Below are positions 3,790-41,579 of a stretch of DNA of 64,000 nt, one piece after another. Source of the DNA: Rhizophagus irregularis. Its lineage: Eukaryota > Glomeromycota > Glomeromycetes > Glomerales > Glomeraceae. How positions within the stretch are numbered: position 1 is the stretch's first letter; every line of letters starts with the position of its first letter. A model generated the notes under the pieces. It was not told the DNA's origin and made no database searches. It saw only the letters and a program-made list of their open reading frames with translations. The stretch is taken from assembly GCF_026210795.1 (NCBI RefSeq), contig NC_089438.1:2625501-2689500 (forward strand), read 5' to 3'. The position numbers and the translations under genes were made by a program.

Positions 3790-6700
3790 TACTAATAAAA
3801 AAATAATACCGCCTAGTAGGAAACCACGAAACTTGTCCTGAAACCCAATTGAAGAGATGTTGGCATCCAAGTCAGAGCAGATTCGTCTACAAAACAAAAA
3901 AAAAATTAAATTAAATTAATTTTTTTTAATAAAGCTTCAAAATCTCTTTACCTTCAAATTGCTGTGTAAAAAAATTCGTTCTTGAAATATTGATTATTTA
4001 ACGCATCATGCAAATCTGATGTACATGTGGATCGACAATTATGTAAAAAATGAACTTTTGGATGGCTATCTATAGTAGTTATTGGATGAACCCGATACCA
4101 TCTCATATTTTCAGCACTAGTCGAACGATGTCAAATCGGGGACCAATCAGGTGACCGAATTCCATCTGATTGGTCCCTATTTTTTTAAAAATTTTCATCA
4201 ATCGGTAAACCTGATTGCTGCCAAAAGATGGCGCAAAAGGAGGATACTCAGGTACCAATCGGGATATTCAATAGAGTATAATCGGGTATTAATAGTTACC
4301 AATAGGATATTTACTGGATATTTACTATTTGACATATCAGTATACCGATTGATAACTTTTTGATAAATTTATAACTATAAGAAATCTACCGATTGTATAC
4401 ATTTTTATTTAAATTTATTTGATATTTTACAATAATTACATTTAATAATTTAAATTTATTAATTATTAAAAATACAAAATCAGAAATACTACTAATACTG
4501 AAATTTTATCTGGAATCCGGTATCCAGGTTGGAGCAAATTCCCTACAAAAGAAATAAAAAAAATTAAAGAAAGTTTTTTAAAAAAAGTTTCAAAAGTTAA
4601 AACTTACTTATGAAATTCCGGTATATACATCTATCAAAGCCGATTCCCTATAATAGAATAATAAAAAAATGTTTATTACCGTTTTTTTTAATAGTTTCAA
4701 AAAAATTTCCGAAACTTATTACTTATGGGATTCTATGGGATTCGTTATACTGATTCCCTATAATAGAACATTTAAAAAAAACTGTTAAAAACGTTTTTTT
4801 AATAGTTTCGAAAAAATATTTTTCGAAACTTACCTATGGGATTCGTTATACCGATTCCCTATAAAAGAATTAAAAAAAAAACGTTAACGTTTTTTTAATA
4901 GTTTCAAAAAAATATTTTTCGAAACTTACCTATGGGATTTGTTATACTGATTCCATATAAAAGAATTAAAAAAAAACATTAACGTTTTTTTAATAGTTTC
5001 GAAAAAATATTTTTCGAAACTTACTTATGGGATTTGTTATACCGATTTCCTATAATAGAATTAAAAAAAACGTTAGTTAACATTTTTTAAAAGTTTCGAA
5101 AAATATTTTCGAAACTTATCTATGGGATTCGTTATAACCGATTCCCTATAATAGAATAATAAAAAAATGTTAGTTAACATTTTTTTAATAGTTTCGAAAA
5201 ATAATTTTTGAAACTTACCTATGGGATTCGTTATAACCGATTCCCTATAATAGTGTATTAGAAAAAAAATGTTAAAAACGTTTTTTAATAGTTTCGAAAA
5301 ATTATTTTTCGAAACTTACCTATGGGATTTGTCCCTATAATTGATAATTGAATATTAAAAAAAACGTTTTAAAAAAATGTTAAAACATTTTTTAATAGTT
5401 TCAAAAAATTATTTTTCGAAACTAATCTATGGGATTCGTTATAACCGATGAGATCCCCCAATTCCCTCTGTCATCAATTTACAGAGTTGCCACATCGAAC
5501 GGGCATTCCCATGGTCGAACAAACGAATAAACGAATAAACGAACAATTAAACGAACAAATAAATAATCAATGACATAATTAACAAACAACATAATCAACG
5601 AACAACATACAACAACATATAGCAACAACATTCTTGGTTCACAACATAAATAGCGTCAGTAATATAAAACATCAAACGATATAAAATAAAATTAACTTCT
5701 CTAAATTTTCCCCAAATTATATCCACTTTTACCTTTAATTTCAAACTTCGATAGCTCTCGCTACGACTTATTACTTTCCAAAAGTGTATATTTAATTCAT
5801 CTTAAATTCCCATTTTATTCAATTAAAATTAATTAAGCGAACATTAATTAAAGTTTAGGGCGAACCTATTACCTTTAATTAATATTAAACTTCATTAACA
5901 AATAATTAAATTTAACTTATATTTTTATTGAGTTCTGTGGATGAGAACTATGGAATTACTTTGAATTCCGTTCCCTATTTATACAAATTTTATGCTACTT
6001 TCTATTCTATCTATATACTATCTTTTATGTTCTTTTTACATATTATCTTTGAACTATCTTTCTAATATACTATCTATATTTTAAATACGCTATCTTTTAA
6101 TATGCTATCTTTTATATATATATTATCTTTTATAATATCTTTGTATTATCTATATTTTAAATACGCTATCTTTTTATATATGTTCTTTTTAATATGTCAT
6201 CTTTTATGTTCCATCTTTATACCATCTTTTTATATTATCTTTTATATTATTTTATGTTCTTTAATCTTTCTGACATTATTTTATATGTTCTTTCAATCTG
6301 CTTTATGTGTTTTGCTTATAATCTATCTTTTGTGGCTTATAATTATTCTTTTTTATCGTTCTTATTGTTAAAGATTGCTAAGCCCCAATTGATCGACTCT
6401 ATTTATCCTATTGGTTCTTTGTCAATCATTTGATAAATATTACATCATGTAGATCATTACTCTTCCTAAATGTTTATCCTTCTCGGCTAATTATTTATCC
6501 ATCTACGCCAATTCATAACTAATTTGTTCGTTCTTAATATTTGGCAATTACATTTGGTGATTGAATTTTACCATCTTTTTATGCTTGATATTCGACCGTT
6601 TACACCGATTTCCTATAATTGTATATTAAAAAAAAGAGTTTCAAAAAATTTTTTCGAAACTCACCTATGGGATTCGTTGTAACCGATTCCCTATAATAGT

Positions 6701-7085
6701 GTATTAGAAAAAAAATGATAAAAACGTTTTTTAATAGTTTCGAAAAATTATTTTTCGAAACTTACCTATGGGATTCGTCCCTATAATTGAATATTTAAAA
6801 AAAACATTTTAAAAAAACGTTAAAACGTTTTTTAATAGTTTCGAAAAATTATTTTTTGAAACTAATCTATGGAATTCGTTATAACCGATTCCCTATAATT
6901 GTATATTAAAAAAAAAGAGTTTCGAAAAATTTTTTTGAAACTCACCTATGGGATTCGTTGTAACTGATTCCCTATAATAGTGTATTAGAAAAAAAATGTT
7001 AAAAACGTTTTTTAATAGTTTTGAAAAAGAATTTTTCGAAACTCACCTGGGATTCGTTATAACCGATTCCCTACAATTGAATGTC
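3790..7085 (-). repeat. Microexon/hairpin array 1, interrupted by a solo LTR
   Basis: About fifteen tandem units of roughly 95-125 bp. Read on the minus strand, a unit is a T-rich tract ending TATAG, a block of about 25 bp (for example starting GGAATCGGTATAACGAATCC), then GTAAGTTTCG, then a spacer with two palindromes: GTTTCGAAAA..TTTTCGAAAC and AAAACGTT..AACGTTTT. The first units (about 3835 and 4510) have longer blocks of 33-50 bp resembling those of the array at 41.6-44 kb. Blocks look like microexons and spacers like introns, but block lengths do not keep one reading frame, so coding is not shown. The array is split by the LTR at 5449-6604, whose 4-bp target duplication lies inside a unit. 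Confidence 0.6.
5449..6604. mobile_element. Solo LTR (about 1.16 kb)
   Basis: The segment begins TGAGATCCCCC and ends GTTTACA, obeying the TG..CA rule of LTRs. It is flanked by CCGA at 5445-5448 and again at 6605-6608, a 4-bp target duplication. Removing it rejoins a normal unit of the surrounding hairpin array (ataaCCGAtttccta), which supports both ends. There is no internal coding region. The interior is low-complexity, with CTATCTTTT-rich tracts from 6000 to 6350. It is most likely the product of LTR-LTR recombination of an LTR retrotransposon unrelated in sequence to the one at 12-26 kb. Confidence 0.65.
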
Positions 7086-7633: not shown

Positions 7634-9208
7634 AGTATAAGGATGGGTCCGCAAATGATTTTCAAATTCCGCAATATTGCGGATTTTGAAGTTGAATTGC
7701 GGTTAGTAGCCCGTAATTCCGCAATTCAGTTTTGGTGTTTTCTTACATACAAAAAACACCAGAACTAATAGGTTTTTTATATAAAAATGCTGGAACTATT
7801 GCTTCCGGCATATTTTTTAATTTTTTTTAATAAAAATGCCGGAACTATGGGTTCTGGCATTTTCTTTTAATTATTTTATATAAAAACGCCGGAACTATAG
7901 GTTCTGGCGTTTTCTTTTAATTTATTTATATAAAATGCCAGAACTATAGGTTCTGGCATTTTCTTTTGATTTTTTTATGTAAAAACGCTGGAACTATAAG
8001 TTCCGGCATTTTCTTTTGAATTTTTTTTATGTAAAAACGCCGGAACTATAGGTTCCGGCGTTATCTTTTGATTTTTTTTTATGTAAAAATGCCGGAACTA
8101 TAGGTTCCAGTGTTTTTTTTAATTTTTTTATGTAAAAACGCCGGAACTAAAATTCCGGCGTTTTCTTTTAATTTTTTTTTAATAAAAACACCGGAACTAA
8201 GGTTCCGGCATTTTCTTTTAATTTTTTTTTAATAAAAATGCCGGAACTAAGGTTCTGGCATTTTCTTTTAATTATTTTATATAAAAACGCCGGAACTATA
8301 GATTCCGGCGTTTTCTTTAATTTTTTTTATGTAAAAACGCCAGAACTATAAGTTCCGGCATTTTCTTTTGAATTTTTTTTATATAAAAACGCCAGAACTA
8401 TAGGTTCCGGCATTTTCTTTTAATTTTTTTATGTAAAAACACCGGAACTAAGGTTCCGGCATTTTCTTTTAGTTTTTTTTTAATAAAAACGCCAGAACTA
8501 AAGTTCCGGCATTTTCTTTTAATTTTTTTTTAATAAAAACGCTGGAACTAAGGTTCCGGCATTTTCTTTTAATTTTTTTTTAATAAAAATACTGGAACTA
8601 AGGTTCCGGCATTTTCTTTTAATTTATTATGTAAAAACGCCGGAACTATGAGTTCCAGCGTTTTCTTTAAATTTTTTTTAATAAAAACGCCAGAACTATA
8701 GGTTCTGGCATTTTCTTTTAATTTTTTTTAATTAAAACGCTGGAACTATAAGTTCCGGCGGTTTCTTTTAATTTTTTTTTATGTAAAAACGCCAGAACTA
8801 TAGGTTCCGGCGGTTTCTTTTAAATTTTTTTTAATTAAAACGTCAGAACTATAGGTTCCAGCATTTTTTTTTAATTTTTTTTTATGTAAAATAATTTCTT
8901 TTATTATTAATAATAAATAGAAATATTTTTTTTTTAGTAGTAATTATATTTTATTAAAAAAAAGAAAGTTTTTTTTGCGGACATTCCGCAAATCTGCAAA
9001 TATTCTGCAAATCCTCAAAGTACCGCAATTCAATTGCGGAATATTTGAGGTACTTTGTGATATTTGCGGATTTGCGGAATATTTGTAGGATTGCGGATAA
9101 TTGCGGATTTGCGGATTTGCGGATTTTTAGATTTAAAAATCCGCAATGTTCTGCAATACCGTAAATCACAATTATTCCGCAATTACATATTTGCGGCACC
9201 ATCCTTAC
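7634..9208. mobile_element. Foldback/MITE-like element with hairpin core
   Basis: The ends are inverted relative to each other: the left begins AAGGATGGGTCCGCAAAT and the right, reversed, begins AAGGATGGTGCCGCAAAT. Both subterminal zones are rich in GCGGAT/ATCCGC words (7640-7700 and 8975-9190). The middle is the 50-bp hairpin array described separately. No transposase is encoded. I could not identify a convincing target duplication, so the superfamily is open; a hAT-like miniature element is one possibility. Confidence 0.5.
7760..8885. repeat. About 23 tandem 50-bp hairpin units
   Basis: Each unit is a near-perfect inverted repeat, AACGCCGGAAC-TATAG-GTTCCGGCGTT or a variant, followed by a T-rich spacer (TTTCTTTTAATTTTTT). 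Several variants change both arms together: CGCCGGAAC/GTTCCGGCG versus TGCCAGAAC/GTTCTGGCA. Other units carry one-sided changes. The period is close to 50 bp through the whole stretch. There is no coding potential. The structure could form DNA cruciforms or RNA hairpins. Confidence 0.85.
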
Positions 9209-9383: not shown

Positions 9384-11364
9384 ATGGCTGCTTAAGTTCC
9401 AGCAATCTTTAACCCTAACAACCGTTTCTTTTACGATGAACTTCTTAAAAAATGTGTAGGTACACACACAAAAGAAAGCGTCAATTCAGCAATCTCGACT
9501 TCTGTGGCTTTCATCACCACAAAATCTGGCATGTGGATTAGAAAAAAGAAGGCTTACAATAGAAGCATATACTTCAAGTTCACCGCAGATCTCAAGGGGA
9601 TTTCTACTAAGCATAAGTACTGGTAAAAAAATGATTTATCCTACACATATCTTACACATATTGGGTACTCAAAATGTAGAAAATCATACACAAATAATAC
9701 ACATATCATACACATATCGGGTACTAATATATATATCATACATATATCAGATATCTGATAGGTATACTATATATATAAGTATTCAATATGTATATGATAT
9801 GTGTATTATTTGTGTATGATTTTCTACATTTTGAGTACTCGATATATGTAAGATATGTGAAGAATATGTGTAGGACAGACCATTTTTTTACCAGTGAAGG
9901 TAATTATTCGGTCAGATACCGGAGAAGACAGTGACGCGACCACATCCACCAAATTAAAGGATCTTCTTCTCCAAGCCTCAATCGCAAAGATCTGTTATAT
10001 AGATGTAAACTTCATGCCTTATCCCCCAAACGCACCAAAGTATAATCCTGAATTCTTCAATCTCTTCCTAGGTTTCAGGGCCCAACCCGCTGAGCACATC
10101 AAATCAAACCTAGTTAATCCAATCATCCGACACGTTCATGAGGTATGGTGTGCAGAGGACAAGCAGTTAACCACATACATCCTCAACTGGCTCGCATTTC
10201 TGGTTCAAAATCCAGACAAAAAACCTGGTATAGCAATTATCATGCGCAGTCCCCCCAGATGTGGTAAGAATATCTTAACCGATTTTATCAGAGAACATAT
10301 TCTTGGCCGTGAAAACTTCTTCTCTACTACCAGTCTTGAAGATGTAATAGGAAGGTTCAATGCAGCTGTTCGTGCCAAAAAACTCATTATCCTCAACGAA
10401 TGTGACATGTCAGGCAAGGAATGGCATGGAGCAAATAACCGACTCAAAAGTTTAATCACCGAGCCTTACATCTGTATCGAGGAAAAGGAAATAGATGTGA
10501 AGGTCATTGATGACTTTGCTGGCTACATGATCCTCAGTAATCATGCCATGCCAATTCGTATAGAAATGGGAGATGAAAGATATGTAGCTCTCAACATCTC
10601 AGCCAAATATAAGGGCAATCGAGAATACTTCGGTTCTCTTATAAAAGTGTTAGAAAATCCAGATACAGTCGGCTCCTTTATGTCTTACTTACTTAGCCAG
10701 AATTTAACTAGCTTCAATCCCCGAACTATTCCAGATACTCAAATGAAACAGGAGTTAATCGAAGCAAGTATCCCAAATCCCCAGCGTTTTATACAATATT
10801 ACCTTGAAATGATGTGGCCCGACAATTGTGATACACTTGAAATCCCGTGTACAAATTTCTATAGTACTTACCAGAACTGGTGCAGTGAGAAGGGTGAAAA
10901 CAAAACACTAAGTGACAATAAATTCGGTATGGAGATTAAGCAATTCGCCCCTAAAATACGTGTAAGCTGCTCAGGTACCCGAATAAACTATTACATACTA
11001 GATAAAGCAAAAATCGTGGAGAATTTTAGTAAAGTAATCCAAGATGTACAAGACGTACAGGAAGCACCAGTAGAAGAAGAAGAGTTAGTTGCCGAGAAAT
11101 CCACTGAGAAAAAACCCGAACCTGTTATCGAAGAGCAACTGGTTTCCAAAAGGGCTCCTCCACCGCTTCCACCCAAGCCTGATTACTTAAAAGAATGTCT
11201 ACAAGAGTTAAGGGAAGAAAAACCATCTGCCTGAACCAGATGACTATGACGTCTTAGACGACTTGTTATCAGACTCAGATTCTACAACCGCAGACCCAGT
11301 TCCTGAAAAACCGTCTGCCAGTAGTATGAAAACCCCAATTCTGGCTCACCTACTTATCTTATAA
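9384..11364 (+). pseudogene. SF3-type helicase of the virus-like element, damaged
   Basis: The main ORF (9894-11234) carries the motifs of a superfamily-3 / primase-associated helicase: a Walker A-like RSPPRCGKNIL near 10240-10270, a Walker B-like KLIILNECD near 10376-10405 and a motif C-like GYMILSNH near 10520. These enzymes unwind DNA for replication in DNA viruses and virus-like transposons. An in-frame upstream part begins at ATG 9384 but has a TAA at codon 4, and a palindromic insertion (9621-9893) separates it from the motor domain. The acidic, Pro/Glu-rich tail continues in another frame past the stop at 11234 to 11364, implying a small indel. The gene lies just upstream of P2 on the same strand. 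The family call is firm; activity is unlikely. Confidence 0.75.
9621..9893. mobile_element. Palindromic miniature insertion in helicase gene
   Basis: The segment begins TGGTAAAAAAATG and ends CATTTTTTTACCA. Most of it is self-complementary, with matching CCTACACATAT words inside each end and a central AT-rich region. It interrupts the helicase reading frame between a His-Lys-Tyr codon run and the next conserved segment. The size (about 273 bp) is a multiple of three, but it introduces a stop. The exact target duplication is not clear. Confidence 0.6.
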
Positions 11365-16001: not shown

Positions 16002-16065
16002 TCATCCCTCTTGAAACGTGAGCTCCCGCGAACGAGAACACCATCGAATATTATCCGATATCCGA

Positions 16066-17343
16066 CATCTCCAATGATCTACTGATATAAGGACGAAGTT
16101 GGTTGGCATGCACCCGCTTCTTACGAATTTTCCCATTGATTGTTCGTAATTGATAATTTCCATTGTTATGACGATCATGTATATAATACGGTCCATTCCA
16201 TTTCGTGTCCATCTTCTTTGGTCGGAAATTCTTCAACAATACTTGTTCTCCAATAGCATATTGTCTAGGATGAATTTGAGCATCATATCGTTGTTTTTGT
16301 TTCTCTTGACTAGTATGCACATTACTTCTAGCTAACTGACGATTGTCCTCTAAGGGTCCTATCAACATCCGAATCCTTTGGTAAAACTGTTCCTGAAAAT
16401 CTTCAACTTGTTGATTTTGTTGAACATCTGATCTGATAACCGTAGGATCACTAGGCAATTTCAATTCAATCGACAAAGTTGCTTCCCTTCCGTAAGTAAG
16501 GTAGAAAGGTTCAAATCGGGTGGTTTGTTGTCGGATGGTTCTATATGCAAACAACGCAGAAGGCAGATATAGGTCCCAATTCGATTGATCCTCCATAGAA
16601 TATTTTGCCAAAGTCTCACATAATGTTCGATTGAATCGTTCGGTCAACCCGTTAGTTTGTGGTCGATATGCGGTTGACAAGTGATGTTTAATACCTAGTC
16701 GAGTACATAACGAATCTAAAAGTTCGTTTACGAAATGTGTCCCTTGGTTGGTCAAAAGAACTTTCAGACATCCATGTCTACAAATAACGTCCTCATAAAA
16801 GAAAGAAACAACAGACGCGGCCTTGGCATCTGATAATGCTCGAGCTTCAGGCCACTTCGTTAAGTATTCGGTTAATACAACAATATACTTATTTCTACGA
16901 GTGGTAATAGGTAACGGGCCAACAATATCCATCCCAACATGGTCGAAGGGTTGTCCGATCTTTATAGGGTGAAGAGGTTCATTTCTTAATAGTCTTTTTC
17001 GTCGTTGACATATATCACACGATTGGACATAACTTCTAATATCGTTTCCCATCTGTGGCCAAAAATATCGTAAACTAATAGCACGATAGGTTTCGGAAAA
17101 TCCAAAATGTCCTGCAAGTGGATCTTCGTGAAAATTATATAACACAGTGGCCAGTTCACTTTTCTTTAATACACGTAAAGGTCGAATAGGGTTTTCCTTA
17201 TTCTTTTTATACAATAAGCCATCTATCGAAACATAATAATGGGCCTTTCGTTTAAAAGCGCGGCGTTGGGCAGCATCATTATTATCAGGCAATTCTAAAG
17301 ATTCCAAATAGCGTAAAATGTTAAAATATGTGGTGAAATCCAT
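16066..17343 (-). pseudogene. Gypsy integrase with catalytic Asp-to-Asn change
   Basis: The ORF covers the HHCC zinc-binding domain (LAGHFGFSETYR.., CDICQRRKR), the catalytic core and a C-terminal domain (GEQVLLKNF.., WNGPYYI). Core motifs are MDIVGPLP with the first Asp and NGLTERFNRTL with the Glu, but the second catalytic position reads LLTNQGTHF where the family has an Asp before QG or RG. The codon is AAC in place of GAC, a G-to-A transition. The reading frame is otherwise open. It joins cDNA ends to target DNA in active elements; this copy should be inactive. Confidence 0.85.
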
Positions 17344-17433
17344 AGGTTGGGTTGAAATCAAAAAAAAAAATATAATCCAAAAATCGGCGTCGGTAATAAT
17401 GGGGAATGGTAAAAAGATGATTTAGGTATATAT

Positions 17434-18660
17434 CTAGATTCTTATCCTAGATAGGCTATCAACGTTGAGGTGCTTCCTTCCGAAGCGATGTGTAGTTTCA
17501 AAATCATACATTTGGAGCTTCATGACCCAATGGGCCAATCTTCCGATAGGGGTAGCCATATTAAATAAATGACATAACGCTTCATGGTCAGTGACCAATT
17601 TGAATCGTTGCCCATAGATATATGCATGGAAATGTTTTACTGCCCATATTACGGCAAGGCATTCCAATTCGGTTGCCGAGTAATTACTTTCTGCCTTATT
17701 ACAGGTACGACTAGCGTACGCAATCACACGATCGTTTCCATCTTCATCCAATTGGGATAATATCACGCCCAACCCAAAGGTCGAAGCATCCGTTAATAAT
17801 ATGAACTGTTTGTTAAAATCGGGAAAGACAAGGATAGGTGAGGTGATCAAGGTCTGTTTCAACTGTTCGAACGCAACTTGCTGTTTTTCACCCCAATTAT
17901 ATGCAACTCCTTTCTTCAACAGCTTATTTAAAGGTGTTGCAATACGAGAAAATCCAGGCACAAATCGTCGGTAATAAGAAGCGAGCCCAAAGAATCCTCG
18001 TAGTTGAGTAACATTCAATGGAGTAGGGAAGTCCTTCACTTTTTGTATTTTAGCAGGATCGGTTCGGATTCCTCTATTACTAACAATATGTCCTAAAAAC
18101 TCCAGTTCTTCCTTCACGAATGAACACTTATCGGGATTTAACTTCAAGCCAGCATCTTCCAATCGATCAAAAATAACTCGAAGATGTTCCAGGTGTTGTT
18201 CAAAGGTATCCGAATAGATGATGACATCATCTAAATACACCATCACGAATTTCCAAAGGTAACCTCGTAAGACTTCATCCATCAGATGCTAAAATGTAGC
18301 CGGAGCGTTACATAAGCCGAATGGCATTACTTTGAACTGGTAAGTGCCGAATTGTATAATAAAAGCGGTTTTGGGTCTATCTGCTGGGTCCATCTCTACT
18401 TGCCAATATTCACTGGCCAAATTGAGAGACGTAAACCACTGTGCTTTTCCAAACGAATTGAGCATATCATCGATCCGAGGAAGAGGATAAGCATCCTTCA
18501 TAGTAATACTATTCAACTCTCGATAGTCAACGCAAAAACGCAGCTTTCTGTTTTTCTTCCGAACTAAGACTACCGGAGCGGCCCATGGACCTGTTGATCT
18601 TTCAATTAGTCCCTCTTGTAACATACGTTGAATTTCTTCCTCAATGAAATTCCGCTCATT
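17434..18660 (-). pseudogene. Gypsy reverse transcriptase and RNase H, inactivated
   Basis: The upstream part (18624-18289) covers RT fingers and palm motif A, and the downstream part (18282-17434) has the YLDD box (MVYLDDVIIYS), the thumb and connection (FLGHIVSNRGI, LRGFFGLASYYRRF) and an RNase H domain (LLTDASTFGLG). A TAG between NAPATF and HLMDEV breaks the frame; the family has Gln there, so CAG to TAG fits. Motif A reads SLNLASEYWQV, in which the catalytic Asp is Asn and the following Gly is Glu, both G-to-A. The enzyme made cDNA from the element RNA; this copy cannot. Confidence 0.88.
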
Positions 18661-19638
18661 TTTGGACGTGCGATACCAATGTTTTCGTACCGCCTTATTG
18701 TTACCAGTATCGATGGAATGTCAGATTAATTTAGTTCGACCTAACTCAGAAGAACTCCACGCAAAATTACCATGACGTTGAACAAGAAATCGAAGTAATG
18801 GTAATTCTAAATCAGTAGGGAGGACTCCGATTTTCATCTTAACGGTAGTAGGAGTAGTTTCCACTTCAGATCCTATTTCCGTATGATAATATTCGACTTC
18901 TTTGGTAATTTGCTCATACTCCAGATGCGTCTTCTGCCTACAGTGATAGCATAACTGTCAGTCATTTTCAGCGGCAACCTTCTCCATGATTAGTTAATTG
19001 TAAGGTTGATTGGTTAATGCAAATTCTCATTGTTCCTCGGAAGGTACAACTCCATCATCACATCGTTCTCTACTCAATTCTTTTAGGATGGTTGGTGAGA
19101 GTCGGCATACTGATTGATAGGTTATCAAATCATCTTGACAGAAATAACAGGCGTCTTCCGGGGAGTATAATGAATTTCAACACCAACATTTAGCTTTCGG
19201 TCCCTTCCAATCATATACCCAAGTTGCTTTCTTAGGAGGCGTCGTCTTGAACTTTTGATTCAAATGTTGAAGATGTCCCCACGTATGGAAACATTTACCA
19301 AGGTAAATTCCTTCATTGGTTAATACAAAATCTTCACATGGATATATGGCGTCTATAACAACGTTAGCGAACTTGCAGTCTAATAATACTGAAGATTCCG
19401 GAAGTGGATCTCGCTTCCGAACTTCAGCTTTCTTTTTACTATTACGATACCGAATACGCATCGGACGTCTAGGTTTTTCAAACTGCATAGTGAAGAACAC
19501 TCGTTCTTCTGGTTCATCGTCTTCGAACTCCTCCTCTTCTTCTTTAATGGAGTCATCATCAGTTTCCTCTTCGTCGGTATCTTCTTTTTCCGATCCATCA
19601 TCATCTTCTTTCGGTTGACTACTTGAATCAATAAGGCC
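18661..19638 (-). pseudogene. Degenerate gypsy pol linker
   Basis: Between protease and RT the minus strand keeps fragments of a coding region in changing frames: an acidic Glu/Asp stretch (about 19500-19630), a Cys/His-bearing segment (GIYLGKCFHTWGHLQHLNQ) near 19280, and CYFCQDD and CYHCRQK segments near 19130 and 18940 that could bind zinc. Stops at 19177 and others interrupt it. This is probably the original pol linker, not a separate gene. Confidence 0.55.
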
Positions 19639-20241
19639 TTATAGCTTCTTTTTCTTCTGAGGCATGAGCCGATATTCAACTGGCACTCTGATGGTCTGCT
19701 TATTCCAAGTGAGGTTCATGGTAGACGATTCATAGTCGATATTAGCCCTGACTTTGCTTAACCAATCATTTCCAACAATTGCAGCATAAGATTCAGCTTC
19801 AGTAACTACTACGTTAATTCGAACAGTAATATTTTGAATGGTGATGGGGAAATTCAACACTTCTCCTAACGGTCGTTTTCGTTCACCATTCACATTAATC
19901 ATCATGGTGGTCGATGGTCTATCGATAGGGATCTTAAGGTCTTTTAATAATTGACATGACACAATACTTCCGGCGGCACCACTATCGATAATCAACGGAA
20001 TCTCAGTGCCTTTCACCGTTGCATCACAGTACAACGCGGTGGCCGTATCTTCTGTTTCCTGTTCACCGAGATTCATCTTTCGAACCGTGGGTTTTCGTAT
20101 TCCTCGTATTAGTTCTGAATGACACTTTGGCGCAACTTCCAATAATTGTCCGAAGGTGATACGAGCTTGTTGATTCTTGATGTCGTCTACCATCGAATAA
20201 GGTGGTACATGTAGTGATATCAAGGGCTGAAGATTCACTTT
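19639..20241 (-). pseudogene. Gypsy aspartic protease
   Basis: A retropepsin-like domain carries the active-site motif LIIDSGAAGSIV, a flap-region VNGERKRPLGEV and a downstream hydrophobic-Gly box (AAIVGNDWLSK). It would mature gag and pol products. It is fused in frame downstream of the -1 pol frame that starts at the gag stop; the insertion at 20242-23040 now separates them. The protease segment itself has no stop until 19639. Confidence 0.82.
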
Positions 20242-23040
20242 CATCAGGAAGTTACGGGAAAATTGTTCATCAAATGTATATCGGTCACTTGATGTACATT
20301 ATAAAGAAACGCTGAACATCGGACCCTGCAATGTACTACCGATGTCACAATATTCGATGTGCATCACCTAATTTTAATGTCCATTAATAATGTACATTAT
20401 TTTAAAGATAATAAACATCATATCGAATTTATATAAATTATGTTAATGATATGACAATACTAAATATTACTGAATTTATTTTATTAAAATACACTATAAC
20501 AATCTATTCTATTATAACCGTAAAAGAAAACAAAAAAAAAGACAGTAGGCCTCGTTAAATTAACCAAATACTCCGGGAGACCTACAAAAAAAGTTTCGAA
20601 GTTATTCTTCGAAACTTTGTCCAGAAGTACAACTTAACAATAAAAAGTTAAAAAGAGTATTAATAAAAAATTAATTTAAAAAAAAATTTTAAAAAAGTTT
20701 CGAAGTGAAGTGAAACTTCGAAACTTACCAATCTGTTCCGTTAAGATTCGTACTTACGAATCTTGTTCTTCTTTTTTCACTCTTCGGAAATCCACCCGAG
20801 ACCTAAAAAAAAGAAAAAGAACGGTTAGTAACCGTTCCATAATATTAAAAAAAAAATAATAATAATAAATAAACCAAGATTCGTACTCACGAATCTTGGT
20901 TCCGCTTTATCCAAAGATTGGAGGCCCACCCGAAACCTATAAAATAAAATATAAAGAACGGTTAGAACCGTTCATAGTATTAAAAAAATAAATCTAAGGT
21001 TCGTAATATAATACTTACGAACCTTAGTTTCTCCTTTTTCTGTTCTTCGGAAATCCACCCGATCCTCTAAAAAAAAGAAAGAACGGTTAATAAACCGTTC
21101 GTAATATTAAAAAAAATCTAAGGTTCGTAGTAAAATACTTACGATACCTCAGTTTATTGTTTTCCGTTCTTTGGAAGACCACCGAACCTATAAAAAATAA
21201 AAGAAAAAGAACGGTTAGTAACCGTTCGTAATATTAAAAAATATAAAAAAAAACCCAAAAGATTCGTACTCGTACTTACGAATCTTTAGGTTTTTCCATT
21301 CTTCGGAAGCCCTCCCGAGACACCGAACCTATAAAAAAAAGAAAGGAATGGTTAGTAAACCGTTCCATAAAATAAAAAATAAAAAATAAAAAAAGATTCG
21401 TACTTACGAATCTTTGGGTTTCCGTTCTTCGGAACTCGGAAGCCCACCCGAACCTAAACAAAAAAAAAAGAACAGTTATTAGTAACCGTTTCAAAATAAT
21501 AAAAATAGATAAATAAAACCAAGATTCTTACGAATCTTGGTTCCTCTTTGCAAAATCCCTTCTTCCATCCTTCCATCCCCCTTTCCCAGTTTTTTACCTT
21601 AAAATCCAATGTATTATTTCCTTATCGATATTTTACGATGCAATCACTCTATCTTGTGTAAAAATACTACGCCAATTAATAATAAAAAGGGCCTGAAATT
21701 TTTTTTTAAAAGCCTTTTGTTGTTTATTTAACCTATATTAATTAAAGCCAGCGTTCTACAAAAAAAAAATGAAAAAGAAACGTTAGATCGTTTCTTAACT
21801 TCAAAATATTAAAAATTCCCTTTCACCATTTTTTACCTTAAACAAGTCCAGTTTCGTGAACAAGCCAGCATCCTCTTAGTAAGCGTCCTACGAAAAAAAA
21901 ACAATGAAAAGAAACGTTAGTTCGTTTCTTAAATTTAAAATCACCCTTCTCCCGTTTCTTACCTTAAAGTACAGTTTCGTATTCAAGCCAGCATTTTCCT
22001 ACGTGTCCTACAAAATAAAATAATGAAAAGAAACGTTAGTTCGTTTCTTAAATTAGTAAAAATAACAAAAATCCTGTTTCTCACTACCTTAAAGTCCGGT
22101 TTCGTAGTATTCAAGCCGGCGTCCTCCGTCCTACAAAAAAAAACAATGAAAAGAAATGTTAGTTCATTTCTTAAATTTAAAATCACCCTTCCCCCGTTTC
22201 TTACCTTAAAGTCCGGTTTCGTATTCAAGCCAGCATTTTCCTACGCGTCCTACAAAATAAAATAATGAAAAGAAACGTTAGTTTATTTCTTAAATTAGTA
22301 AAAATAACAAAAATCCCGTTTCTCACTACCTTAAAGTCCGGTTTCGTAGTATTCAAGCCGGCGTCCTCCTAGTCCTACAAAAAATAAAATAACAAAAAGA
22401 AACGTTAGTTCGTTTCTTAAATTTAAAATATCCCCTTTCCAGTTTCTTACTACCTTAAAGTCCGGTTTCGTAGTATTCAAGCCGGCGTCCTCCTAGTAAA
22501 CGTCCTATAAAAAATAAAATAATGAAAAGAAACAAAAAAAAAAGATAAAATTAAAAAAAAATAAATAAATAAAAAAAATAAATTAAAAAAAAATAAATTA
22601 AAAAAAAAGTAACGAAACTTACAGATGTGAGAAAAGGGGAGAACGAAAAGGAAGGGAAGGACGAAAGGAAAGGGAAGGATATAGGAGAAGGACGAAAGGA
22701 TAAGGGGATGAAGGGAAGTGAAAGAAAGGGAAAGAAAGAAGTTTAAAGTTTTTTATTAAACTTTTTTTTATCAAAAAAAAAAAGATCGATCGGCAAACTG
22801 ATCACGTAATACCGATCAATACTAACTGTAGTTAACTGAAATTTACTTGTTAGTAATATTATAGCAAAGATATGTACATTGAATATTTATTATTAAATGC
22901 TGCACATCATGATAAAAATCTCATTGATGATGTTCATTAATGTTAAATATTACATGTACATTTAAAATAATGAAAATTGCAATGTAAATGATTTGCAAAA
23001 ATATACATGTAATGAACATTTTTCCCGTGACTTCCTGATG
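20242..23040. mobile_element. Microexon-array element nested in gypsy pol
   Basis: Both ends carry the same inverted sequence, beginning CATCAGGAAGTYACGGGAAA and continuing for about 38 bp (Y marks the one difference early in the repeat). The element splits gypsy pol between a Lys-rich stretch and the protease. Reading frames on the two sides are compatible after removal if 2 bp are duplicated, but the target duplication is not certain because the site is A/T-rich. It has no transposase ORF. Its content is the microexon array described next, plus AT-rich subterminal zones with TGTACATT words (20280-20560 and 22780-23030). The superfamily is unknown. Confidence 0.6.
20570..22760 (-). repeat. 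Microexon/hairpin array 2 (about 15 blocks plus a CT-rich first block)
   Basis: On the minus strand the array opens with a pyrimidine-rich block (about 22760-22625) that ends directly in GTAAGTTTCG. About seven blocks of roughly 43-50 bp follow (21800-22510; ending CCGGACTTTAAG, then GTAAG or GTAGT). Then come about eight blocks of 45-49 bp (20725-21540; beginning GTTCGGGTGGGCTTCCG, ending GATTC, then GTAAGT). Each block is preceded by a T-rich tract ending TATAG or TGTAG. Spacers hold hairpins GAACGG..CCGTTC or GAAACG..CGTTTC. In the second group the 5' splice site is within a palindrome, AAGATTCGTAAGTACGAATC. Block lengths of 43, 45, 46 and 49 bp are not multiples of three, so no single frame persists. 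It could be a spliced non-coding RNA, a decayed repeat protein gene or a satellite. Confidence 0.65.
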
Positions 23041-23360
23041 TTCTTTTTCTTTTTAACTACTGGAACTTTCTTTTTCTTGGCGGCTATGTTAACAGTAGTC
23101 CGTTCAATGGCTTTGGATGATGTTTCCGCTGTTTCGGTAACTATCATTGGTTCAACTGTTTTAGGTATATCAAGTGGAGCAGTCGGAATATCAATAGGTT
23201 GTAACAGTTCCTCTTCTTCCGAAACGACTGGTCTAGGATATGGTTTGACTCTTCTCGTTTGACTCCTTCGTTGGGCAGGATAAGCTTCGAATAAGGTATT
23301 TAATGATATAGAGGATTTATCAGGTTTTGCATCTATACCTCCGGTAGATGCACCATTTAG
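23041..23360 (-). pseudogene. Gypsy pol N-terminus in the -1 frame
   Basis: From the gag stop the -1 frame is open for about 105 codons. It encodes a Pro/Glu-rich then Lys-rich linker (KPYPRPVVSEEEELLQ.., AAKKKKVPVVKKKK) up to the nested element at 23040, beyond which protease follows. The ORF has no start of its own, consistent with expression by ribosomal frameshifting. Confidence 0.65.
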
Positions 23361-24994
23361 TTTAAAGATGGCTGTTGACCATTACCAATGGTCGTATTAC
23401 TCGCAGAGTTTAACTGCTTCAGCAATTCTTGTACTAAACTTTGGGTATCGTTGGTAGTTGAAGTCGAAGTAGGAGGAGCAGTTACAACAGGCGCGACGGC
23501 AGCATTGGTATTATTGACGTTCATTGAATTAATTGGGCACCGGTGGCTTACATGTCCAGGTTCGCCACAAGCATAGCAAACGATTGGTCGATTTGATCCC
23601 GAAGGAGCGTTCGGATTTCTACTATCACTTCGTGGTGGTGGTCGATTTCCTGTAACCTTTTTTCCGATCTCTGTGATTTGCTCAGTTAGAGCTGCAACCA
23701 ATTTAGTGAGCTTGGTAATTTCAGACGTAGTTTGACTGGCATAGTTCAATAACTTCGTCTTTCCTGATCGTAAGGTAAGTTCACAACCTTTGGCTCTTCC
23801 TATCGCATCTGCTAATGTTTGATCCCCAAAGGGTTTTACCGCCATATAGAGCTCAGGTTGCAATCCAGAAACAAATTTCCGAGCTTGTAAATTATCGGGA
23901 TAGGCGAACGCTGCATCGTTAACTCGCTGATAGAGTTCTTGAATGGACGAGGCGTATTCATCTACGCTTTCATTCGGTTGTTGCTGCCTCTGATCTAACT
24001 CAGTCGCCCACATCTCTACCATAGCCGCAGTCTGAAACCGGGTAAGGAAAGCATGTTCAAAGTTATTAGCGTTGGCTGCTGCTGCCCAGGTGTTAATAGG
24101 TGCTTGTACCGCTGTTTGATACCAAACGGCAGCTGGTCCTTTAAGATAAGCAGGGACTATTTGTAATTTCCGCGCGATATTCCATCTATTAGCCATCGCG
24201 GTTGCATTAAATTCGTTCAACCAGGTGATGGGATCTTGGTTTCCGCCACTAAACGTTGGCACCTGCGCAACGTTATGGTTCCGATTTTGTAAAGCATTGT
24301 TATTCGTGGCTACCATAGCGTTTAGTGTGTTCATGGCATTTCCGAGATTGTTTGGAGCTAACATTTGTCCTGTTAAGGCTTGCACGGCTGCTGTCAAGGC
24401 TTGAATATCTGCTTGGTTGACTTGAGGGGCTTGGTTGAATCGGTTAGGAGATTGTCCTTGACCTTGATTATTTTGAAGATTTGACATATTTTCGTCTTCA
24501 AACAGGTATTCTAGATATAACGGTTCGTTAATAAAAAGAAGATTTCTAGGATATCGTAATATCGGAGAAGTTGGTGGTGTTATAAAAGACAGTTCATAAC
24601 CTAACGGTTCGTCTTCGTGCTGATAATGAACGAAAGGGTCAAGGTTAAAATTCTGAAACCTTTCACGAGCTGTATATATCTTGATAGCTAATTTATCATA
24701 AGAAAACGAGGCGTTTTGGTATCTAATACTTGATATCAATTTCCGAATAAGATATTGTTGCCTTAATATCGTTCTTTGACTATATTCGTAAAAATATTGA
24801 ACGGTTTTTGCAGAATAAGACAATGTGAGAGTTTCTAGTGAATACCAGTTCCAAAATCGTAGAAAATATCGGTCTGGTATTGTGAGAACAGGATGACAAA
24901 TACGACAAGAATCGTCTGCTAATTCAAATAGAGGAATATTAGGATATGTCCAGTGTAACTGATCGTGGCGTTTCAGGAGATTTCTATTGTTCAT
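23357..24994 (-). CDS. Gypsy gag, about 545 aa
   Basis: The ORF is open without lesions. I take ATG 24994 (MNNRNLL) as the start because the codons upstream are not methionine; an internal Met at about 24488 (MSNLQNNQG) could start a shorter product. Order of parts: an unusual N-terminal domain of about 170 residues with a CRICH motif, a Gln/Asn-rich linker, the gag capsid-like domain (DPITWLNEFN.., AYLKGPAAVWYQ.., SVDEYASSIQELYQRV..), a basic linker and one zinc knuckle, CYACGEPGHVSHRC. Gag forms the virus-like particle and packages RNA through the knuckle. The stop codon is preceded by a slippery site. Confidence 0.85.
   Translation of the reverse strand: MNNRNLLKRHDQLHWTYPNIPLFELADDSCRICHPVLTIPDRYFLRFWNWYSLETLTLSYSAKTVQYFYEYSQRTILRQQYLIRKLISSIRYQNASFSYDKLAIKIYTARERFQNFNLDPFVHYQHEDEPLGYELSFITPPTSPILRYPRNLLFINEPLYLEYLFEDENMSNLQNNQGQGQSPNRFNQAPQVNQADIQALTAAVQALTGQMLAPNNLGNAMNTLNAMVATNNNALQNRNHNVAQVPTFSGGNQDPITWLNEFNATAMANRWNIARKLQIVPAYLKGPAAVWYQTAVQAPINTWAAAANANNFEHAFLTRFQTAAMVEMWATELDQRQQQPNESVDEYASSIQELYQRVNDAAFAYPDNLQARKFVSGLQPELYMAVKPFGDQTLADAIGRAKGCELTLRSGKTKLLNYASQTTSEITKLTKLVAALTEQITEIGKKVTGNRPPPRSDSRNPNAPSGSNRPIVCYACGEPGHVSHRCPINSMNVNNTNAAVAPVVTAPPTSTSTTNDTQSLVQELLKQLNSASNTTIGNGQQPSLN
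23360..23366 (-). promoter_or_regulatory. -1 ribosomal frameshift slippery site TTTAAAC
   Basis: In the gag frame the last codons are TCT TTA AAC followed by TAA, so the heptamer T TTA AAC sits directly before the stop. It fits the X XXY YYZ rule for -1 slippage and is one of the strongest known slippery heptamers. Slipping back one base enters the open pol frame. A downstream RNA structure was not assessed. Confidence 0.65.
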
Positions 24995-25065
24995 ACAATA
25001 GGAAAGATTATCCTTTGTTGTCAAGTCAATTCAGGGGTAATCGTACGGTCAGTTTTTGTTTGTTT

Positions 25066-26769: not shown

Positions 26770-27335
26770 TGTATCGTAACTCTGCCAATATTAATCGTAG
26801 AGAGATGATCTTACCGCCATTCGATTCGTCTTGATGAGACGGTTCTAATGGTATAAAATACATCGAAATCCAATCACTAGATTAATTTCCGAAATTAAAA
26901 AAATATTAATGGTTTTTGTGTAATAACTCTGCCAATATTGATCCTAGAGAGACGATCTTACCGCCATTCGATTCGTCTTGATGAGAAGGTTCTAATGGTA
27001 TAAAATACATCGAAATCCAATCACTAAATTAATTTCCGAAATTAAAAAATATTAATGGTTTTTGTGTAATAACTCTGCTAATATTGATCCTAGAGAGACA
27101 ATCTTACTACCATTCGATTCGTCTTAATGCGACGAATCTAATGGTATAAAATACATCGAAATCCAATCACTAGATCATTTTCCGAAATTAAAAAATATTA
27201 AATGGTTTTTAAGTAGTAACTCCGTCAATATTGATCACAGAGAGATGAGCTTACCACCATTCGATTCGTCTTGATGAGGCGATTCCAACGAGCTATTAAT
27301 CGTCTTTTTACAATCACTAGGTACTGAGAAATTTA
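26770..27335 (+). repeat. Subterminal direct repeats, about 136-157 bp, four copies
   Basis: Each copy contains AACTCTGCCAATATTGATC, CCGCCATTCGATTCGTCTTG and ATCGAAATCCAATCAC words. A fifth partial copy lies at 30745-30830 in the same orientation, on the other side of the coding region. They are likely part of the element's replication or transposition signals. Confidence 0.7.
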
Positions 27336-31028: not shown

Positions 31029-34000
31029 TTTAATATGATACTTTCTATTAATATGATTAATTGCTAAATATTCTACTGCATTTCGCCGGTCTGAAATTTT
31101 ATATTTTACTGGAATAAACCAACCTAAAATATGATGTACCGGAATAATGCAGTCACGGCTCTCATGATAAAATTCAGATCTCCATAGTTCAACGGTACAA
31201 GTTTCGTGTTCATTGTCACTACTAAAATAATATCAAACATCGCTGGAAGCTACATGTTGATTCTACCGAACATAGGCTAGGAAATGTTTGGCAGATTGAT
31301 TTTGCAAATTAATTGTATGTTTAAAAAAAATATTATATCTGGCCAGGATAACAATCGACTTCGCCATCCGATGTCACAAATTTGGCCAGAATAAACGAAC
31401 TATTTACATGTCGAGACAACATCAAAGAGCTGAATATTTCAGAACCAATTTGACATCTCCTGAATTTGTTCATTTTGACATTAATAACTATTGAACCTTC
31501 TGGCCCTTCTCCAAACGGCTTTTGAAAATTGTACATTTCGTAGGTTGCATTGTAATATTCTACAATCCGGTCAAGCATATCATCTGATAATACAATATTT
31601 TCAGTAGATGGTCTTAACATTTCGCCTGGAAATGGTTCTTGTCCAGTAATCGGCAATTGTCGGATATCTTGCGAATATAATAAATATCTTCTCATTTCAT
31701 CTAAAGAAAATTCGTCAGTTTCCGAAAGTGAACCAACTACAGTTGTATTATTAAGTAAATCGAGACCCTTTGTCTCAATCCCGGAGCTTATTAAATTAGC
31801 AATTTGATTATCGTTCATTAATCGCCGCATAATTTCAGGTTCAATTTTTCGATGACTGTTCAGAAAAGAACCTAAAAATAACAAATATTATAATCGGCCT
31901 TTTTAAATTGTGAATTATAAAATATTAAATTCGAACTCACCTAACATACCGTTCATACGCTCAAATGAAAAACACCAGAAAGTGTAAAGGGGACCGAAGT
32001 CATGTGCACATTCACATAAGTGAAGAGAAAGATGTAGGTTTGGCGTTATCATATCTCGACCGTAATGGGTTTCTATTAATTTTATGACTTCAACTAGTCT
32101 TTGGTGAGCTTCATTCATGAAAGCGGTTTCCACAATTCGACTTACTAATATCGAGCATATTCTTACATAATGTGTAAGAATCTTCCTATCTACAACCGAA
32201 AGATGATCCCAAAGTGCTACAGTGGCGTAAATATTAAAAAACAATCGCCATTGGTCTGCGGTAAAATTAGCAAAACCTTCACCAGAATAGATTTTGCCTG
32301 GAATTCGACCTAAATCAGAGGGTATTTGGAATTCATTCATCTTTTTCTGAATTATTTTTAGAGTTTCTTGTGATAATACGCCCGTCTCTATCCAAAGTCG
32401 TTTAACTATCCATCTTGCAATGCCTAAGAATAGACAATGCATTGGATCCACAATCGTGAACATAATTGGGTCAAAGTATGGTAAACGAAGTAATTCGGAC
32501 CATCTGACTCCAGTCTGTTTCGCAAACCGATTTTGTGAAGCGTCCAAATTACAACGTCTCCATCCTAGAGCGTTTTGACGATGTTCGTTCGAATTCTGAG
32601 TAATGAACCAGTCATCCATATTCTCCATACCTGCAAAATTATTTTTTCTGTTTTCATAATTTGCGTGTTTCATACACCGATGACAAGAGGCGAGTGCCGA
32701 AACATGACCGCAAATTTTTCTTGCGGCAGGTATGTCACATGACACTAGGATTAGAGCTGCACGAATCCTCTTTCTATTTTTGCATTCGTATGTCCGATTT
32801 AGAGTTACACCACTCCAAAGTGATTCTAAATCATCAACAATCAGAGCTAAATAGTGATTAATTCTATGTAAACTCACTTCATTTGGGCCAGGTAAAAGCC
32901 CAAGAATCAACATATTTTCTTGCTTAAATTGGATGTCTCTCGGAAGATTGCATATTGCAGCATATATGACTCCAGTGCTATGTATCGTTCTGTCAAACGG
33001 CTGAAACCAGTCAAGGTTCAGCATCAATCCGAGATGTGAATCGGCAACATCGGGACGAAAGAAATTACTTGAATTATCATTATCTTTTAGGGTTCGCCAC
33101 ACTTTCCCATCATAAATGTCCGTTAAAATGTCATCATGATTTGGACGATTTGCCCAGTGTCGAAAGGATTTTTCAAATTCTGGTCGATTGTACATTTTCC
33201 TCAATTGTTGACAAATATTAATTTAGGTTTCAAACTTAGTTTTTCGTTTGTTAATAAGATTCGGTCATATAATGGAGTTTGACACCGCTTTAATCTACGA
33301 CTTGTTGAATTTGGAAATTCAATATGTTGACATTTCGTTACAGTAAGGTCTTCATCTTGATTAAAATTTTCCAATTCTTGTTTATTATATAATTTATGAC
33401 ACTTTTGACACGGCACAAAGCTATGAAATAGGTCTTTAAGACCAAGCGCATTTTTTGCAAGAAACAAAGTGCCAGGAAATGTATCAAAATTGGAACCTCC
33501 GATTTCTCTTAACACCAGTTTCATGAATTTTATTAATGATTCTGTTCCTGTTTCTGGAAGGTTAAACCTTGTCCGAAATCTCATAATCCAGATTAAAATC
33601 CATAATATTCGGTTATCATTTGCCACCTCTGTATTAATTGATGGTTCAAATGGAGGACATGAATAATTCTCAAAAATTTTAGAATATTCATTATTTGCCG
33701 AATCATCATTATCATCAATGCCAGTATCAGATTCGGTAGCTTCTGATTGTTCGAAGTCGTTAATAAAAAGTTCAGTGAAAGTTGTTAAAAGTTTAGTATA
33801 TCTTGATACACGTTCCCGAGGTAAATAATTGAAATCAGAATCGTCGGTTTCTTGATTTTCTTCTTCTATATCTTCTATATCAACAGTATCTTGTGAAACT
33901 TCAATTTGTTGCCTACTAAACCTAGCTGACTGATATAACTCATCGTTTGTATTTTGTTGAGACGATTCAGCTTCAATATCTTTCTGAATTGACATTTGGC

Positions 34001-39779: not shown

Positions 39780-40920
39780 TTTTTTTAGGGACACGTTGAC
39801 CTTAGCCTCTTGGATATCGGACTTTGGAATTGTATAATGGGAGGAGTGGCTTTATTTTTGAGTTGAAACGTAACTAACGTTCCTTTTTTTTCTTAGGACG
39901 CATCCTGGACTTGGACTTCGGCTTTTTGGATACCACGGCCTCTTTGATACCGAACTTTGGTCTTTTGGCTTTATTTTGGCTTCGGAAGGTAAGTGTTTTT
40001 TTTAAAGAAAAAAGTCACTTTATAAAAACATTTTACTACTTTTTTTTTTATAGGAATTTCCAGCTAGAACGAACCGGACTTTAAGGTAAAAGTTGGTTTT
40101 TTTTTCTTATTTTTCTTTAATTTAAGAAACGTTTTAACATTTATTTTCGTTATTTTTTTTGTAGAGTGCCAGATTGGACACGAAATCGGGCTTTAAGATA
40201 AGAAACAGGAAATGTGAGGTGTTTTTTAATTATAATTAATTAAAAAAGTTCTTTTGCATTATTTTGCAGGAAACACATATGATTAACCGAAAGCAGTTTT
40301 GAACGTCAAAACGTTTCTCAATGTTTCGTCTATCGGTTAGTTTCAAACTAAACTCAATTTTTTGACCGAAACTTTATCATATTATTAACTTTCGTCTTTT
40401 TTTTTGTAGGTATTTCGCCCAAATCTTGAATCTACAGGTGAGTTTCGTTGGAAATTTTTTTGTTAATTTTTTATCGAAACGTTATCATATTAACTTTCGT
40501 CTTTTTTTTGTAGGTATTTCGCCCGGATATTGGATCTACAGGTGAGTTTCGTTGGAAATTTTTTTGTTAATTTTTTATCGAAACTTTATCATATTATTAA
40601 CTTTCGTCTTTTTACGGGTGAGTTTCAACTGAAACTCTTTTTTTTTCTTTTTTAGGTGAGTATCGGCTTCGATTTTGCGCTTTAGTTTGATTAGGTATGC
40701 ATCAGCTTCAACATTATGCTTTGGATCATTAAGTTCGAAGCTTATTTTTTTTTGTCTAGCTTTTTTTTTAGGTACGTATCGGCTTTGATCTTAGGCTTTG
40801 GCAAGTTTCAAAAGTCTTTTCTTTCGAAACTTATTGTTTTCGGTTTTTTTTTTAAAAACTTGCTTTAACTTTTTTTTTCTTTTTTAGATACCGGCTTCCT
40901 TTCTTTGGTTTTGGATGGAT
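39780..40920 (+). repeat. Microexon array 3 of CACTA A, left portion
   Basis: On the plus strand, blocks are preceded by T tracts ending TAG and followed by GTAAG or GTGAG. Clear examples are a 32-bp block at about 40053-40084 and two near-identical 28-bp blocks beginning GTATTTCGCCC and ending CTACAG at about 40411-40438 and 40515-40542, both followed by GTGAGTTTCG. A longer block (about 92 bp) lies at 39896-39988. The array continues after the nested element at 44700-44960. It runs in the same direction as the accessory gene and towards the accessory-side terminus. Confidence 0.55.
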
Positions 40921-41505: not shown

Positions 41506-41579
41506 ATCCAAACCCAAGAACCGAAAGCCAAAATCTACAAAATTGAAGATAAAAAATTTAAAAATATTAAAAAAAATAC

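Follow-up and report, generated by a model that had tools for sequence, protein, structure and literature searches.

Tandem microexon arrays with hairpin-bearing predicted introns in a terminal-inverted-repeat element of Rhizophagus irregularis

A 64,000-nucleotide stretch of the Rhizophagus irregularis genome (NC_089438.1, positions 2,625,501 to 2,689,500; hereafter the window) contains a tandem array of microexon-like blocks separated by short predicted introns, whose donor and branch sites lie within hairpins. The array is enclosed by terminal inverted repeats (TIRs), and the resulting element sits inside a Ty3-like retrotransposon. The borders of this element, its insertion site and its family of copies are directly apparent, as are a partial constraint on its splice signals, covariation in the hairpins and the use of predicted splice sites by public gene models. 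The explanation we favor, with a probability of roughly 45%, is that of a mobile, mostly non-coding multi-intron gene, i.e. a non-autonomous TIR transposon with 2-bp duplications that carries its own transcription unit and in which the hairpins gate splicing. The array is part of a genome-wide class, and among the titles listed by literature searches no earlier description of such hairpin-intron arrays was recovered.

An array of microexons within a TIR element

A typical unit of the array comprises a 45-54-nt exon and a 74-92-nt intron; the 12 middle introns are of 74-92 nt, the first of 118 nt and the last of 147 nt. Nearly all of them display a donor, a CTAAC-like branch site, a T-tract and a YAG acceptor, and these signals, including the branch consensus and pyrimidine tract, stand at the spacing proper to U2-type introns. 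An initial annotation of the window had described about fifteen blocks of 43-50 bp here, with GTAAGT or GTAGT donors, following a CT-rich first block that itself ends in GTAAGT. The placement (~22.7-20.5 kb, minus strand) and the first block (donor at 22622) were recovered as described; the internal blocks exist but number 13, of which eleven are 45-54 nt long, one is 74 nt and one 224 nt, and at the GTAGT sites a better donor (GTAAGA or GTGAGA) sits 3 nt further on. The donor palindromes it had placed at 20874-20899 and 20994-21027 are as claimed, the 3' arm of the first having been quoted from the plus strand, whereas its AAGATTC palindrome at 21254-21288 is a longer-looped form, the perfect form occurring at 21393-21414 and 20743-20764. 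The stems GAAACG/CGTTTC and GAAATG/CATTTC, which had been taken as spacers, are present but are in fact branch-site hairpins with the loop AACTAA.

The TIRs of the enclosing element are 40 nt each and 90% complementary, and its longest open reading frame (ORF) from methionine to stop spans 80 amino acids. At the insertion site the left flank reads ...KKVPVVKKKK and the right flank KVNLQPLISL..., and the public protein P0005 (RhiirA5_403357) has the uninterrupted frame ...KKVPVVKKKKKVNLQPLISL..., the junction being explained by a single 2-bp duplication (AA). Given that this uninterrupted frame matches both flanks, the TIR element has split the gag-pol reading frame of its host retrotransposon. 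Hence both a 2-bp target-site duplication and an empty site, as expected of a TIR transposon, are at hand; 2-bp duplications were also seen by eye at other copies of the element.

Copies of the element and a genome-wide class of arrays

Throughout the 146.7-Mb, 32-contig R. irregularis assembly, to which all genome-wide counts refer, the TIR end occurs 92 times at up to 3 mismatches (reversed control 0). These ends form 26 convergent pairs less than 12 kb apart, 16 of them at 2.3-3.3 kb, alongside 3 same-strand and 1 divergent pairs of neighboring ends. Across the 10 of these 16 short copies that were examined whole the longest methionine-to-stop ORF is 99 amino acids. Four copies, including that of the window, are ~98% or more identical across the array. 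Among four copies examined for layout, those with the leader end show the order TIR, subterminal part, CT-rich leader, array, end signal and TIR, and despite this common layout their exon sets differ. Five copies (L033-L037 on C1, C31, C14, C9 and C8) bear an identical 8-bp flank, cataatta, next to the TIR; because this flank is identical, they probably moved as part of a larger unit.

Beyond this family, donor hairpins of the form GTAAGTTTCGAA..TTCGAAAC have 305 exact matches in the genome (control 0). Allowing C/T at their CpG positions yields 607 matches and allowing G/A yields 564 (controls 0 and 2), with a union of 866. A second type, AAGATTCGTAAG..GAATCTT, has 770 matches, besides 110 and 78 of two one-letter variants (controls 0). 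Together the two types account for ~1,800 pattern matches, in which self-symmetrical sites are counted on both strands. The apices of the hairpins vary between and within arrays yet stay complementary, e.g. GCG/CGC, GCA/TGC, GCAAC/GTTGC and GCAATG/CATTGC (L069, L070, L072). Judged by the lack of any mutual match of more than 8 letters among ten representative exons of different arrays (best E 0.11), the exon families are unrelated. A strict chain detector reported no chain at L071, L073 or L074, nor at window positions 4733, 6637 and 42980; the design of arrays lacking a detected chain was read by eye together with a hairpin scan. Viral contigs gave no exact match to the one branch hairpin that was tested against them.

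Hairpins at the splice signals

An intron-chain detector found 313 introns in chains of at least 4 over 248 kb, with 4-14 introns called per array, and none in reversed sequences, which supports the earlier description of microexon-like blocks with intron signals. Perfect 8-bp donor stems occur in 144 of 265 unique introns versus 5 of 265 shuffled ones, and perfect 7-bp branch stems in 143 versus 8. In both subfamilies of the window array this second hairpin presents the branch site in its loop. The tubulin introns of the same genome, for which 11 junctions were found of 12 tried and 2 introns lack the branch motif by the pattern used, have perfect donor stems in 0 of 11 and perfect branch stems in 0 of 9. 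By a laxer score a donor stem is seen in 1 of 11 tubulin introns, 233 of 265 array introns and 106 of 265 shuffled ones, and a branch stem in 5 of 9, 248 of 265 and 103 of 265, respectively. Across 282 introns, local pairing exceeds that of shuffled sequences to either side of the branch site as well as around the donor. The exons of subfamily 2 contain a third hairpin, TTCCG-AAGAA-CGGAA or TTCTG-AAGAA-CAGAA, whose central pair in 53 unique contexts is C-G in 31, T-G in 16, T-A in 4 and C-A in 2. At C1:4310020-4310050 and C1:5156498-5156528 the donor hairpins are so symmetrical that a GTAAGTA donor is present on either strand.

Covariation was assessed by permutation at stem positions that had not been used for selection, the relatedness of copies not being removed. 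At the apex of donor type 1, 53 and 47 of 62 pairs are Watson-Crick, versus permuted means of 28.6 and 18.8. For donor type 2 the outward positions 1, 3 and 4 have 42, 39 and 38 of 55 (means 22.7, 27.2 and 28.4; reached by 0 of 2000 permutations), position 2 is weaker (34 versus 26.8; 25 of 2000), and positions 5 and 6 do not covary beyond chance. In the branch stem, outward positions 2 and 3 have 36 and 31 of 37 (means 18.6 and 18.5; 0 and 1 of 2000); position 1 is almost invariant and positions 4-6 show no covariation. Compensatory changes thus exceed permutation in both donor and branch stems, in line with the covarying stems first proposed from the window.

Constraint and public gene models

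Between-copy substitution rates were computed with CpG sites set aside, as CpG decay confounds the comparison of exons with introns. For donor GT, intron and exon, respectively, they are 0.0201, 0.1360 and 0.1772 in pairs below 80% identity, 0.0109, 0.0608 and 0.0818 at 80-88%, 0.0070, 0.0343 and 0.0542 at 88-95%, and 0, 0.0077 and 0.0106 above 95%, where the pairs are non-independent and, since signals were annotated in one member of each, splice-site rates may be up to ~two-fold low. Donor GT and branch T fall below both intron and exon rates in all four bands; the acceptor pyrimidine is likewise low, least clearly below 80% (0.054 versus 0.136), and exons are the fastest-changing part in every band. 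Splice-site constraint of the kind expected of U2 introns is hence seen for the non-CpG donor GT, the branch T and the acceptor pyrimidine, and for the acceptor AG in distant copies only (clearly low only under 88% identity: 0.0115 versus 0.0608 for introns at 80-88%). The pattern looks like selection on active lineages combined with decay in dead copies.

Several public gene models follow the predicted introns. OCT59_024931 fits an array on C5 over 199 of 199 residues with 13 introns, 11 of them exactly as predicted, and RIR_jg10454.t1 fits a sister element over 153 of 153 residues with 13 introns, 7 exactly as predicted (RIR_jg10454.t2 fits over 120 of 138 residues). GLOIN_2v1769123 fits the window array itself over 80 of 89 residues, its 4 introns placing 7 of 8 splice sites at predicted subfamily 2 borders, and fits three sister copies over 76, 66 and 47 residues. 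For RIR_jg29739 the public annotation holds isoforms t3, t4 and t6. PMC6123716 and PMC10234402, to which we infer these locus tags to belong, describe annotation that used RNA-Seq; PMC6123716 specifies AUGUSTUS with RNA-Seq intron hints, standard genes requiring support from expression, homology or motifs. Since public gene models use many of the predicted splice sites, the array is likely to be spliced.

RNA-level gating or DNA-level origin

Under the favored explanation the transcription unit would consist of the CT-rich leader, the tandem microexon/mini-intron units and a last exon with its end signal, and would be transcribed, its introns being removed by the ordinary U2 spliceosome; the exon sequence itself would presumably hardly matter. 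The hairpins may, at about even odds, limit access to each donor and branch site; with similar odds such restricted access could lead to intermediate use of each intron and thereby to many isoforms. Units would multiply through unequal recombination. It is possible, though in our estimate rather unlikely, that the arrays represent a novel class of non-coding mobile genes, namely transposon microexon arrays with introns gated by hairpins selected at the RNA level, with close to two thousand intron copies and more than one independent origin in the form of several families.

A number of observations weigh against this explanation. The acceptor AG is not conserved in close copies (0.0071 versus 0.0077 for introns above 95% identity, 0.0295 versus 0.0343 at 88-95%), and a donor GT inside a CpG decays nearly like any other CpG (0.151 versus 0.248 at 80-88%, 0.144 versus 0.177 at 88-95%). 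GLOIN_2v1769123 skips units, RIR_jg10454.t1 begins with an exon outside the element, and gene predictors pick introns that keep a frame open; in view of the skipped units and this preference the models support splicing in general rather than each junction. An autonomous partner was not found in the three longer copies inspected: C30:6022-15546 has unrelated ORFs and a BAH match below the cut-off, without a transposase, C16:1940576-1944691 has no ORF of at least 100 amino acids, and the transposase of C27:2784450-2788987 belongs to a nested Tc1 that has inverted repeats of its own and is flanked by TA. This nested Tc1-like element (HTH_Tnp_Tc3_2, DDE_3) occupies L080 3235-4540 on C27. The antisense strand likewise shows elevated pairing, which is what a palindrome in DNA would produce. 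Of 88 hairpins in a scan, 21 have no GTA/GTG/GTAA donor, although GTTA or GTTAG is still available in 6 of these and 2 look like chance matches. Close to the array, ~22 copies of a 50-bp palindromic satellite, GCCGGAAC..GTTCCGGC and by eye also GCCAGAAC..GTTCTGGC, occupy window positions 7773-8882 and show no splice signals in the part inspected. Finally, G-U is favored over A-C in donor stems no more than the mutational bias of the sense strand would produce. Single changes give G-U and A-C in ratios of 302:259 (p 0.076) and 110:78 (p 0.024), together 412:337 (p 0.007); smaller local counts are 39:39 and 44:36 for donor stems, 23:28 for branch stems and 54:23 for unanchored donor stems in a T-rich context. 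Polarized sense-strand CpG changes, C>T versus G>A, number 1679:1058 in exons and 1960:1519 outside them, a strand bias that by itself predicts ratios of 1.3-1.6; the mild excess of 412:337, suggestive of selection on RNA at first sight, is no larger. The bias itself is what transcription of the array strand could leave.

In the absence of such a preference, the palindromes may have originated at the DNA level, and this is a serious competitor, to be taken at somewhat less than even odds. Template switching in a fast-recombining array would lengthen palindromic seeds and copy changes between the arms; splicing would then be genuine and maintain the seeds, with the stems contributing nothing to it. 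The donor (GTAAGTAC) and branch (GTTACTAAC) motifs are near-palindromic and, on their sequences, natural seeds; the exons bear palindromes too, hairpins outlast the loss of the donor GT, and the antisense pairing, the intronless satellite nearby and the G-U counts point the same way. Yet the tubulin introns, whose signals are of the same kinds, have no such stems (11 introns only), branch covariation ends at a fixed stem length, and in the exon stems G-U exceeds A-C by 16 to 2 at one of the two testable pairs (6 to 7 at the other; 53 unique contexts, post hoc). A role at the RNA level is further favored by the fixed position of the hairpins on two splice signals beside unrelated exons and by the covariation. 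We place gating by RNA structure slightly ahead on account of the tubulin control and the sharp length of the branch stem, both alternatives being close to even. The earlier suggestion of selection or a mechanism acting on structured introns is hence upheld as far as splice-signal constraint and covariation go, and not by base-pair preference.

Other explanations and known systems

A different possibility is a repeat-protein gene, in which each microexon encodes a short repeat, as the public annotation with its hypothetical proteins would have it. Among the matches listed, 55 R. irregularis proteins (47 and 8) resemble two spliced readings, several 45-nt exons share a frame in some arrays, and several of 38 arrays have a longest spliced ORF above all 50 shuffles. 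Most of the 38 spliced readings nonetheless stay within the shuffled range, rows of 49- and 50-nt exons shift the frame, and, even with CpG set aside, divergence is faster in exons than in introns. The lengths of 209 internal exons modulo 3 are distributed 89/67/53. Multiples of three, at 89 of 209, are somewhat over-represented (p 0.009 if related exons are treated as independent), and there is no consistent frame, as the initial annotation had stated. Thus, exon lengths and divergence rates do not reveal frame-preserving exons under protein constraint, and we regard this explanation as improbable.

Still less probable are introner-like units, whereby structured introns would insert singly, the sequence left between them becoming exons. 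The donor hairpin GTAAGTTTCGAA..TTCGAAACTT does recur next to unrelated exons; however, exon and intron repeat together in tandem, the TIRs enclose the whole array rather than an intron, so that insertion of lone introns is not what is seen, and no isolated insertion with a target duplication was noticed, though no systematic search was made. It is very unlikely that the arrays serve as a bait or shield in genome defence, with poorly spliced introns stalling spliceosomes and feeding or evading small-RNA silencing, although sequestered splice sites would fit and in Cryptococcus poorly spliced introns do stall spliceosomes and feed small-RNA silencing.

Among known systems, the introner-like elements or stwintrons of Hypoxylaceae, as presented in PMC9024468, are likewise repeated fungal spliceosomal introns with internal symmetry and predicted hairpins; there a single intron is repeated with symmetry from end to end, whereas in R. 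irregularis exon and intron repeat together, donor and branch site have separate hairpins, and a TIR element is involved. Structured introns of yeast (PMC12350175) similarly have pre-mRNA structures close to splice signals, and differ from the genome-wide class of tandem arrays in R. irregularis. With non-autonomous TIR DNA transposons resembling miniature inverted-repeat transposable elements, the element has in common TIRs, 2-bp duplications (by eye), many copies and the lack of a transposase-size ORF (10 short copies); it differs in that its cargo is a complete-looking multi-intron transcription unit. In host genes of small nucleolar RNAs (snoRNAs), non-coding exons evolve faster than introns, as the exons of the array do; unlike in these genes, an Rfam scan of the window gave no family at the gathering threshold.

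Features of the window

The coordinates of the element, its array and the other arrays of the window are collected in Table 1. The best named matches of the gag ORF beside the array are R. irregularis proteins. Elsewhere the window has a 457-residue ORF with DUF5906 and Pox_D5 domains (9861-11234, plus strand), a Transposase_21 ORF (31915-33222, minus strand), a 104-bp satellite of 11.6 copies with 96% matches (55535-56739), and a 147-bp satellite (26777-27285), which by eye is also found beside a hairpin-intron array on C1 (L073 ~1-330).

Table 1. Positions of the TIR element, its microexon array and related features in the window; a slash marks the predicted splice site within a donor hairpin
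Feature	Position	Strand	Basis or remarks
Whole TIR element, 2,799 bp	20242-23040	-	No transposase-size ORF; inside Ty3-like retrotransposon
TIR, 3' side of array	20242-20281	+	Family end CATCAGGAAGTCACGGG
TIR, 5' (leader) side of array	23001-23040	-	Inverted-repeat match
CT-rich leader, presumed first exon; predicted start region just upstream	22623-22760	-	Sequence; layout as in other copies
First intron, GTAAGT ... TAG, 118 nt	22505-22622	-	Splice signals
Subfamily 1 units	21756-22504	-	Exons 22504-22451, 22374-22327, 22249-22205, 22130-22085, 22007-21963, 21887-21837
Branch-site hairpin GAAATG-AACTAA-CATTTC, covarying	22153-22170	-	Subfamily 1
Branch-site hairpin GAAACG-AACTAA-CGTTTC	22030-22047	-	Subfamily 1
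Spacer block, 224 nt	21532-21755	-	Possible longer alternative intron: donor 21597, acceptor 21453
Subfamily 2 units	20803-21531	-	Exons 21453-21408, 21328-21280, 21187-21143, 21066-21019, 20936-20891
Donor hairpin AAGATTC/GTAAGTACGAATCTT, perfect form	21393-21414	-	Second at 20743-20764
Donor hairpin CTAAGGTTC/GTAAGTATTATATTACGAACCTTAG, covarying	20994-21027	-	
Donor hairpin CCAAGATTC/GTGAGTACGAATCTTGG	20874-20899	-	
Branch-site hairpin GAACGGTTACTAACCGTTC (GAACGG-TTACTAA-CCGTTC)	20819-20837	-	Subfamily 2
74-nt block (45 nt with inner donor 20757)	20729-20802	-	
Last intron, donor hairpin GTAAGTTTCGAAG...CTTCGAAACTT	20582-20728	-	
Presumed last exon, AATAAA-like end signal, predicted end site	20478-20581	-	Sequence
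Host retrotransposon gag ORF (Retrotrans_gag, zf-CCHC)	23357-25030	-	Domain matches
Host retrotransposon protease, reverse transcriptase/RNase H and integrase ORFs	16051-20298	-	Domain matches
Array of same design, other exons	42980-43980	-	By eye and hairpin scan
Array of same design	41506-42539	-	
Short array of same design	40356-40613	+	
Array of same design, exons ~26 nt	4733-5449	-	By eye and hairpin scan
Further units of the 4733-5449 type	6637-6996	-	

Implications

The birth and multiplication of structured introns are an open question, and here one genome holds hundreds of copies of one intron design beside unrelated exons; the recurring arrays could therefore serve the study of how such introns arise and spread. 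Some of the elements are recent enough to retain 98% identity, so that one can ask whether the hairpins are selected RNA structures or a by-product of palindrome growth, for which the satellite at 7773-8882 is a useful control at the DNA level. Some of the 'hypothetical proteins' of R. irregularis may, moreover, be spliced transposon arrays.

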